Origin: Acetobacter sp. AN02
Lineage (GTDB): Bacteria; Pseudomonadota; Alphaproteobacteria; Acetobacterales; Acetobacteraceae
Length of the DNA: 64,000 nucleotides
Assembly (NCBI RefSeq): GCF_029759835.1
Contig: NZ_JAJJND010000001.1
Coordinates: 1 to 64,000 of the forward strand
Direction: 5' to 3'
Position 1 is the stretch's first letter, and each line of letters begins with the position of its first letter. The notes under the pieces are model-generated. The model was not told the origin of the DNA. It ran no database searches and saw nothing but the letters and a program-made list of their open reading frames with translations. The position numbers were made by a program, and so were the translations under genes. Positions 53,192 to 56,955 of the stretch are shown one piece after another.

Positions 53192-54166
53192 GTGGCTGTC
53201 TATACCGAGGTCAGTGACGCGGCGCTTGTCGCGTTTCTCGCGGAATACGATATCGGCACGCTTACGGCCTTTCGCGGTATTGCGGAGGGTGTTGAGAACT
53301 CGAACTATGTCCTGCGTACCACCGGCGGGGATTTCATTCTCACCCTGCATGAGAAGCGGGTTGATCCGGGCGACCTGCCCTGGTTTCTCGGTCTGATGCG
53401 TCATCTGGCGCGGCAGGGGGTGGTCTGCCCCCAGCCCGTGGCCGGACGTGACGGGGAGACGCTGCGGGAGCTGGCTGGCCGGCCGGCGGCGATCACGACC
53501 TTTCTTGAGGGGGTATGGCCGCGGCAGGTTCAGACGGCGCATGGTTTTCCGCTCGGTGCGGCTCTGGCGCGGCTGCATCTGGCCGGGGAGAGCTACACCA
53601 CGCCGCGCCCCAATGCGCTCGGACCGCAGGCCTGGGCGCCTCTTCTGGAGGCCAGCCGGGCACGAGCCGATGAGGTGCAGCCGGGGCTTGCGGCGGAGCT
53701 GGATGCGGCTCTGGCGCGTATTCTGCCTGCCTGGCCGGGAGCGGGCGATAATCCCGATCTGCCGCGCGGGCAGATTCACGCCGATCTCTTTCCGGATAAT
53801 GTGTTCTTCCTCAACGGGACGCTGTCCGGGCTGATCGATTTCTATTTCGCCTGTACCGATATCCTGGCCTATGACATCGCGATCTGCCTGAATGCTTGGT
53901 GCCTGGATGACAGAGGGCAATTCAGCGTGACATGCGCGCGCCGGATGCTGGAAGGGTATGACAGCGTGCGGCCTCTGTCCGGGGCGGAACGCGATGCGCT
54001 GCCGGTTCTTGCGGCCGGGGCGGCGATGCGGTTCTGCCTGACGCGGCTTTATGACTGGATCAATACGCCTGCAGGAGCGATGGTGACGCGGAAGGATCCG
54101 CTGGCCTATCTGCGGCGGCTGCGTTTCCACCTCTCCGTATCCGGTGCGGGTGATTATGGGGTCTGA
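53192..54166 (+). CDS. thrB: Homoserine kinase (ThrB, APH fold)
   Basis: A 324-residue homoserine kinase of the aminoglycoside-phosphotransferase fold found in Alphaproteobacteria, not the GHMP type of E. coli. It begins [20 protein letters not shown], has [16 protein letters not shown], and the catalytic loop [13 protein letters not shown] followed by [10 protein letters not shown]. It phosphorylates homoserine for threonine synthesis, downstream of the lysC product. The start is a GTG; its end overlaps rnhA by 11 bases. Confidence 0.93.
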
Positions 54167-54647
54167 TCCGGAAGAGGCCGAGGAGGTTCCCGTCGAAATC
54201 TGGACGGATGGCGGCTGTCGTCCGAATCCCGGGCCGGGCGGCTGGGGCGTGCTGCTGCGCTATAAGGGCCGGGAGCGTGAAATGTCCGGCGGAGCGGCCG
54301 AGACCACCAATAACCGCATGGAGCTGACGGCGGCGGCGGAGGCGCTTGAGGCGCTGAACCGTCCGTGCCGTGTCGAGCTGCATACCGACAGTGAATATGT
54401 CCGCAATGGCATCACGCGCTGGCATACGGGCTGGGTCCGGAAGAACTGGCGCAACTCCTCCGGCGATCCGGTGAAGAACATGGATCTGTGGCAGCGTCTT
54501 CTGGCGGCTGCGAAGAAGCATGACGTGTCCTGGCACTGGGTGAAGGGCCATTCGGGCGTGCCGGAGAATGAGCGGGTTGATGAGCTGGCGACGGCGGCGC
54601 GTGTGGAGATGGAAAACGGCGGCCGGGATCTGCCGGAAGAGGGCTGA
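54156..54647 (+). CDS. rnhA: Ribonuclease HI
   Basis: A 163-residue enzyme cleaving RNA in RNA-DNA hybrids. The catalytic acids sit in [15 protein letters not shown] (Asp), [13 protein letters not shown] (Glu), [12 protein letters not shown] (Asp) and ENERVDELA (Asp), with the basic handle [16 protein letters not shown]. Start at the ATG 54156, overlapping thrB. Confidence 0.95.
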
Positions 54648-54687
54648 TCTTCCGAGCCGGATCTGCCCGTGCGGTGATCCGGGGCGT

Positions 54688-54924
54688 GAGGAAATCACGC
54701 GCTCTCTGATCTGCCGGTTCCTGTTTTCCCGTATCGAATTTTCCGGCGGACTGACCGGCCATTACTTCGGGTTTACTGAAGACGAAGGTGTCCGGGGAGC
54801 CTGGCGGGGATTCCGGACGCTCTGCGGAGCGAGGTCAGGCCGCGCGCGCCATGATGCGGTTGAGGGAGGCCTGGCGGAGGCTGCCCGTGAGGACGACGAC
54901 ATGCAGGCCCATTTCTGATGTCAT
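54688..54924 (-). pseudogene. Remnant of an NADPH-dependent FMN reductase
   Basis: Reading from the ATG at 54924, the first 29 residues (GLHVVVLTGSLRQASLNRIM) match the FMN-binding start of ChrR/azoreductase-like flavoproteins, then a TGA occurs at 54837-54835. In the same frame, after about 60 bases, comes FVFSKPEVMAGQSAGKFD (near 54780-54733) and ADQRARDFL, which match the C-terminal end of the same family. The middle, roughly 120 residues in relatives, is missing, and no stop ends the C-terminal part before rnhA. It lies 67 bases after pirin on the same strand, where such reductases often occur. Confidence 0.6.
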
Positions 54925-54991
54925 GATGTGCTGCCCTGCCCTTTCATCCGTATGCATCATGGGATGAGACGCATACGGAGGTCGGGTTTTT

Positions 54992-55864
54992 TTACGCTGC
55001 CGGAATGCCCCCGAATTTTCCGGCGCGGAATTCGTCGATGGCGGCCCGGATCTCGTCCTGGGTGTTCATAACGAACGGGCCGTATCCTGCAATCGGCTCG
55101 TTGAGCGGCTGTCCTGTGAGCACGAGGAAGCTGGTTTCGGTTCCGGCTCTGAGGGGCACGCTATGGCCTTCGGTGCCAAGCAGAACGAATTTCGCGCTGC
55201 CGGCCTTTTCCTTATCCCCGACCGCCAGCTCCCCTTCGAGGCAGATGACTGCGGCGTTGTGGCCTTCGGGCAGCGGCATGGTGACCTGTGCGCCCTCATG
55301 CAGCACGCCGTCCCAGACGTTGAGCGGGGAGAATATCCGGGCCGGGCCTTTCGTGCTTTCATACTCTCCGGCGATGACCCGCAGACGGCCTGCCTGATCC
55401 GGCAGGGCGACCTCAGGGATGTCGGCTGCCGTGATCGTCTGATAGGAGGCCGGGGTGCCCTTGTCCTTTGCCAGGAGGTTCACCCAGAGCTGCACCATGC
55501 GGAACGGGTCGCCCTTTCCGGCATAGGCGGCGAAATGGAATTCCTGGTGCAGGATGCCGTTTCCGGCCGTCATCCACTGGACGTCTCCCGGGCCGATCAC
55601 GCCGCCCCCGCCGGAGGAATCCCTGTGCTCGACCTCTCCGTCATAGACGATCGTCACGGTTTCGAACCCTTTATGGGGGTGTTCGCCCACGCCGCGCCGC
55701 GTCTGTGTGGGGGTGAATTCGTGCGGGCCTGCATAGTCCAGGAGCAGGAACGGGCTGAGCTGCTTTCCGAAATCGCTGTAGGAAAACAGGGAGCGGACGG
55801 GGAAGCCGTCTCCGACCCAGTGGCCCTGATCATTACCGTAAAGGCCGAGGACAGTCTTGTGCAT
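54992..55864 (-). CDS. Pirin-family protein
   Basis: A 290-residue bicupin of the YhhW/pirin type. The metal-binding set appears in GVGEHPHKGFETVTIVYDGE and GDVQWMTAGNGILHQEF. Bacterial pirins can have quercetinase activity or modulate metabolism; the role here is unknown. It is followed on the same strand by the decayed flavin reductase, so this was probably once a two-gene operon. Confidence 0.9.
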   Translation of the reverse strand: MHKTVLGLYGNDQGHWVGDGFPVRSLFSYSDFGKQLSPFLLLDYAGPHEFTPTQTRRGVGEHPHKGFETVTIVYDGEVEHRDSSGGGGVIGPGDVQWMTAGNGILHQEFHFAAYAGKGDPFRMVQLWVNLLAKDKGTPASYQTITAADIPEVALPDQAGRLRVIAGEYESTKGPARIFSPLNVWDGVLHEGAQVTMPLPEGHNAAVICLEGELAVGDKEKAGSAKFVLLGTEGHSVPLRAGTETSFLVLTGQPLNEPIAGYGPFVMNTQDEIRAAIDEFRAGKFGGIPAA

Positions 55865-56040
55865 GACAGGTCTCCCTGTTTGCTTTCCGCGGGTTTTCTT
55901 CCCGTGGAGATAGGGTTTTACCGGCGGAGATGAAAGCCCCGGGAGGGATGGTCTGTCACAGGAGTATTTTCCGGTGGCACCTGGTCCGGCTCCGGGATAT
56001 GCGTATCCGGCACAGTGATTTCTGACGGACGGACAGGGTG

Positions 56041-56955
56041 ATGACAGAGCAGCCGGTCATTTTCATTGACGGAGAGGCCGGGACGACGGGGCTGGGCATT
56101 CGCGAGCGTCTTCGCGACCTGCCGGTGCGGCTGCATTCCGTTGATCCGGCCCGGCGCAAGGATCCGGCAGCCCGTGCAGAGGCAATGGCGGCGGCGGACC
56201 TCGTGGTTCTGTGTCTGCCGGACGAGGCGGCGCGTGAGACGGTCGCGCTGCGGGAGACGCTGTCCGGGGATGCGCGGCCACGTCTGCTGGATGCGAGCAC
56301 GGCGTTCCGGACGGATGATGCCTGGGCGTACGGGTTTCCGGAGCTGAGGCCCGGCCAGGCGGAGCACATCGCCCGGGCGGATCTCGTTTCCAATCCCGGC
56401 TGTTATCCCACCGGCGCTCTGGCCCTGCTGCGGCCGCTGATTGCCGCCGGTGTGATGGAGGCGGGTTTTCCGGTCTGCATCAATGCCGTGAGCGGATATT
56501 CCGGCGGCGGGAAATCCATGATCGCGGCGCATGAGCAGGAAGGCGGTCCGGCTTTTGAGCTGTATGGTCTGGGGCTGGAGCACAAGCATGTTCCTGAGAT
56601 CATGAAGCATGCGGGGCTGACGCGGCGTCCGGTTTTCGTGCCGTCGGTGGGGCATTTCCCCCAGGGGATGATCGTTTCGATCCCGCTGCATCTGGCGGAA
56701 CTGAAGGGCGGCGTGAAGGGTGGTGATCTTCAGACGCTGCTGGAGCGGGCCTATGAGGGCTGCTCCATGGTGCGCGTTCTTCCCCCTGAAGCGAAGCTGA
56801 TCGGGGAGCCCCTGGCCGGACGGGATGATCTCGAGCTGCGTGTTCATGCGAATGACGCGCATGGCCAGGCGGTGCTGACGGCGCGGCTGGATAATCTTGG
56901 CAAGGGAGCGTCCGGAGCGGCGATCCAGAATATCCGCCTCATGCTCGGGGTCTGA
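56041..56955 (+). CDS. argC: N-acetyl-gamma-glutamyl-phosphate reductase (type 2)
   Basis: A 304-residue NADP-dependent reductase of arginine synthesis, the shorter type common in Alphaproteobacteria. It starts with the nucleotide-binding [18 protein letters not shown] and has the catalytic Cys in [28 protein letters not shown] and [15 protein letters not shown] follow. A GTG one codon before the chosen ATG is possible. Separate from the argDF operon at 22531. Confidence 0.94.

Follow-up and report, generated by a model that had tools for sequence, protein, structure and literature searches.

The window analysed here, a stretch of 64,000 nucleotides from Acetobacter sp. AN02, carries the gene order rnhA, reductase remnant, pirin, argC (Table 1). 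The remnant lies on the strand of pirin and starts 67 bases after the end of that gene (gap 54925-54991), as the sequence-only reading had correctly placed it. An ATG at 54924 on the minus strand opens a frame that reads MTSEMGLHVVVLTGSLRQASLNRIMARAA up to a TGA and, past this stop codon, DTFVFSKPEVMAGQSAGKFDTGKQEPADQRARDFL and onward, in agreement with the earlier claim that both ends of a reductase are readable in a single frame.

Table 1. Features at the rnhA-pirin locus, with positions given in the window.
Feature	Position	Strand	Evidence
rnhA (RNase HI), convergent with the remnant	54144-54647	+	RNase_H, 161.6 bits; stop codon overlaps the reductase tail
C-terminal reductase remnant, codons 139-188, without its own stop	54643-54792	-	orthologue profile, 39.8 bits; tblastn; open frame
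Deletion scar, codons ~39-138 absent; weak fit to codons 39-45	54793-54812	-	
Frameshifted reductase continuation, codons 30-38 (PDLAPQSVR)	54813-54839	-	frameshift-aware alignment
N-terminal remnant of ChrR-type FMN reductase, codons 1-29 including GSLRQASLN	54838-54924	-	orthologue profile, 21.5 bits
pirin, 290 aa, intact	54992-55864	-	Pirin, 113.5 bits; Pirin_C, 105.1 bits

The assignment of these ends to an NADPH-dependent FMN reductase, which had been proposed from the letters, was borne out by a translated search with a profile HMM. Twenty reductase genes were gathered from relatives, and the profile was built on 19 distinct intact Acetobacteraceae copies, the gene of Acetobacter persici (L009, same contig as L045) being excluded for its broken frame. 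In the segment 54640-54991, columns 1-29 and 139-188 of the profile gave the scores listed in Table 1, whereas the top score over 1000 dinucleotide shuffles of the segment, read in six frames each, was 4.4 bits; when the whole window was scanned, the two pieces reached 19.0 and 36.9 bits and the next place 2.4. Both ends of the remnant accordingly match the family of the 19 orthologues (ChrR-type, PF03358 family), while a search of the same genome with the PF03358 model itself does not have the remnant among its matches. Aligned by tblastn with residues 139-189 of one intact reductase (L005), the C-terminal piece shows 51% identity (E 1.9e-11). Its homology does not stop at 54688, as first thought, but runs to about 54643, where it overlaps the final five bases of rnhA; the frame lacks its own stop codon and stays open as far as 54412 across rnhA.

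The lost gene is predicted, from comparison of an intact orthologue with known structures, to have encoded a ChrR-type NAD(P)H-dependent FMN reductase (quinone/chromate reductase). The Komagataeibacter swingsii orthologue (L116) scores 141.5 bits against PF03358 and matches PDB 3s2y over residues 3-185 (E 1.2e-82) as well as 4h6p and 4hs4, followed by E. coli YieF/ChrR (3svl, E 4.2e-64). The entries 3s2y, 4h6p and 4hs4 belong to Gh-ChrR, the chromate reductase of Gluconacetobacter hansenii, in which, according to PMC3412864, S15, R17, S20 and N22 are phosphate-loop residues, PEYNY 82-86 binds the flavin ring, and N85, R101 and S118 were probed by mutation. With the Gh-ChrR numbering carried over to the remnant through the L116 alignment, the FMN phosphate loop GSLRxxSxN is present as GSLRQASLN (codons 54885 to 54861) and retains all four of these loop residues. 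Like Gh-ChrR, the remnant thus has the loop G14-N22 and the C-terminal part, but unlike it, the window copy carries a frameshift, is missing codons ~39-138 and does not end in its own stop codon. The flavin-ring and NADH/substrate residues (PEYNY 82-86, N85, R101, S118) fall inside the deleted stretch, and the locus is therefore to be regarded as a remnant rather than as a working member of the ChrR-type family. E. coli ChrR/YieF likewise belongs to the family of the lost reductase, whereas the window copy is dead.

Concerning the interruption of the frame, the frameshift-aware alignment indicates that, past codon 29, the homology resumes in another frame, where codons 30-38 are still recognizable. 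In a fixed register, the 48-base middle was shuffled base by base 20000 times without equalling the real score, and among 18272 segments taken from both strands of the window only the real stretch reached 13.5, the next best being 11.97, the columns for this test having been picked after the alignment was seen. In a less specific test, in which the whole frameshift-aware alignment was rescored with the middle shuffled, the real score was reached by 17 of 300 shuffles, so that the 20 bases next to the scar can be attributed to codons 39-45 only weakly; pairwise DNA alignments moreover place the middle of the remnant differently depending on the relative used. Since codons 30-38 continue in another frame, the TGA, whose presence in the frame had been rightly reported, is best explained as a by-product of a small frameshift rather than as a separate nonsense mutation. 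The size of the deletion has to be revised as well: about 120 residues had been thought to be gone, while the alignment gives about 100 missing codons (39-138), or 109 (30-138) when the frameshifted piece is taken as lost. The reductase that follows pirin in A. persici JCM 25330 (L045:3903-4010) also changes frame close to the place seen in the window, near codon 28, which may reflect either a sequencing error or the decay of a second copy.

Selective constraint differs between the two neighbours, the remnant being relaxed and pirin constrained. Of the 29 residues that are invariant in the 19 intact copies and fall within the surviving N- and C-terminal ends, 10 are changed in the remnant, compared with at most one (mean 0.32) when each intact reductase is left out in turn. 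As the lineage of the window is long, pirin was taken as a control for branch length: over the same 17 relatives, the remnant breaks 11 of 32 invariant residues and pirin 10 of 165. The pirins of left-out relatives break at most 5 of 170, and the higher count in the window pirin fits a long branch. These substitutions also bear on the idea that the genome holds an intact reductase whose middle was collapsed in assembly or sequencing. The assembly is a draft in 186 contigs, it is the one genome of its species among 49 of the genus, and the nearest pirin DNA among these is only 73% identical, all of which leaves some room for an artefact; however, a missing middle would not cause changes at otherwise invariant residues of the surviving ends, and no further reductase piece was matched in the genome. 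A local assembly fault is therefore unlikely, given that the substitutions are spread across the remnant, and an artefact of this kind is considered very improbable.

The decay nevertheless seems not to be very old. The N-terminal piece alone has one of nine invariant residues changed and the frameshifted piece none of two, and differences between the C-terminal piece and the intact copies are most frequent at third codon positions (means of 13.8, 17.5 and 30.3 for first, second and third positions, against 10.8, 11.3 and 27.6 among the intact copies themselves), although the codon-position comparison is not decisive by itself. This pattern argues that selection acted on the gene during much of the time since its lineage separated. 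The good state of the N-terminal piece and the retained phosphate loop could also be cited for a living small gene, in which the 29-codon open reading frame at 54924-54838, or an RNA from the segment, would have kept a function. Such a loop should not, however, hold FMN without the remaining fold, the folding energy of the segment is no better than that of shuffles (z -0.12), and no sigma-70-like promoter was found in 54100-56100 (shuffle mean 0.3), so that a functional small gene appears very improbable as well. In the same interval, the terminator scan returned one terminator-like site, located within pirin (shuffle mean 1.5). An imperfect 12-base inverted repeat, followed by a run of T on the plus strand, lies at 54947-54979, between pirin and the remnant; it is absent from the output of the scan and could be a candidate end of rnhA transcription.

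Taken together, we consider with a probability of about 0.95 that 54924-54643 (minus strand) is a pseudogene of a pirin-linked ChrR-type reductase, marked by the removal of some 100 codons from its interior, at least one frameshift and the loss of the stop codon at the rnhA junction. In the ancestor, pirin and the reductase would have been carried on one transcript. The internal deletion has removed the residues binding the flavin ring, NADH and the substrate, for which reason no working enzyme is to be expected; in whatever order these lesions arose, a small frameshift at least came in addition, and the stop codon was probably lost where a rearrangement joined the gene to rnhA. The cell may no longer need this reductase, or may rely on another flavodoxin-fold quinone reductase. 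Two FMN_red-like genes, presumably WrbA-like, are present on other contigs of the genome. In its nature, the remnant is a pseudogene of the common sort, from a well-known enzyme family and produced by ordinary gene decay, and genome erosion in Acetobacteraceae is already in print (for instance PMC6558740).

The former link between the two genes is supported by the relatives. The window pirin shares 63-76% identity with the best-matching pirin in each of 22 other genus members, and a DNA search with it over the 49 genus genomes shows that 30, including its own, carry this pirin. Combined by hand from the positions given by several searches, the tally for the other 29 is as follows: a reductase follows pirin on its strand in 21, lies elsewhere in the genome in five (G007, G027, G030, G034 and G259) and was not found in three (G019, G026 and G260). 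Within the 21 pairs, the spacing is below 300 bases in 20 and about 780 bases in one (G036); 19 of the reductases have a full-length open frame, that of A. persici (G010) is frameshifted and one (G025) ends at a contig end. In the genome of the window itself, the remnant (54649-54792) is the sole match to the intact reductase protein. The comparison with relatives that had been called for thus speaks for the original proposal that pirin has lost its reductase partner by internal deletion. On the basis of strand and spacing, the two genes would form a putative operon. As for the literature, none of the papers listed by a search for such a link combines pirin with an FMN or chromate reductase in its title or abstract.

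The comparison was extended to the family. In a DNA search of 200 of its genomes, 23 had a match, the genome of the window included, and in none of these 23 did a match reach from the end of pirin into the remnant. Short matches of 26-29 bases to the first part of the reductase do not represent reductase genes, since only one of the 24 other loci from this search has a reductase; this sole pair (L122), from another genus, has the reductase 124 bases after pirin. Pirin loci such as L119, L120, L121, L123 and L124 have no reductase within the covered stretch of about 1.5 kb on either side, and none was seen at the pirin loci of named Gluconacetobacter and Novacetimonas (L044, L049-L052 and L055). 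Similarly, at a domain E of 0.01, no reductase remnant was detected in six loci having pirin without a nearby reductase (L006, L010, L014, L023, L024 and L025), or in the named loci L039, L040, L044, L049-L052, L054 and L055; the pirin loci of G259 and G260 were checked for remnants by tblastn only. The linkage of pirin and reductase is therefore common within the genus and not universal across the family.

The window shares with the other Acetobacter pairs the order and the strand, pirin then reductase, but differs from them in that the reductase is broken and the pair is flanked by rnhA and argC, an arrangement that is new here and unseen at the relatives' loci examined. As in the window, ispH, thrB and rnhA stand together in the rnhA loci of 29 relatives (29 of 40 other genomes searched), and pirin is not found within about 1.5 kb on either side of rnhA in these loci, nor beside argC in 29 relatives' argC loci. 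Conversely, neither rnhA nor argC is found beside pirin in 29 other pirin loci of the genus, over stretches of up to about 1.5 kb. Since the relatives' rnhA, argC and pirin loci show no such neighbours, the order rnhA, remnant, pirin, argC is most likely rearranged, and the reductase tail, which meets rnhA within a few bases, would sit at the rearrangement junction, a feature that the sequence-only reading had missed. The neighbours rnhA, pirin and argC, which together span 54144-56955 in the window, stand apart at the relatives' loci examined, where rnhA does not adjoin the reductase either.

More tentatively, and with the odds rather against it, the pair could have moved beside rnhA in this lineage, the junction cutting into the stop codon of the reductase could have begun its decay, and pirin could now work without its usual redox partner. 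If so, the genus would provide natural cases (paired, unlinked, lost) for testing the relation between pirin and a quinone reductase. As it stands, the locus is a clean example of partner loss, in a single genus that also holds adjacent and unlinked pairs, and hence part of a natural series in which a dependence of pirin on a ChrR-type reductase can be examined; beyond that series, it is useful chiefly to annotators.

Finally, K. swingsii differs from the Acetobacter arrangement in that a gene with an isochorismatase domain separates pirin from the reductase. Similar open reading frames of about 230 codons lie between the two genes at L116:2752-3532, L053:3862-4645 and L041:1445-2226, two of these genomes being Komagataeibacter and the third that of an uncultured relative; the protein of L116, the only one of the three that was scanned, carries the isochorismatase domain PF00857 (84.9 bits).
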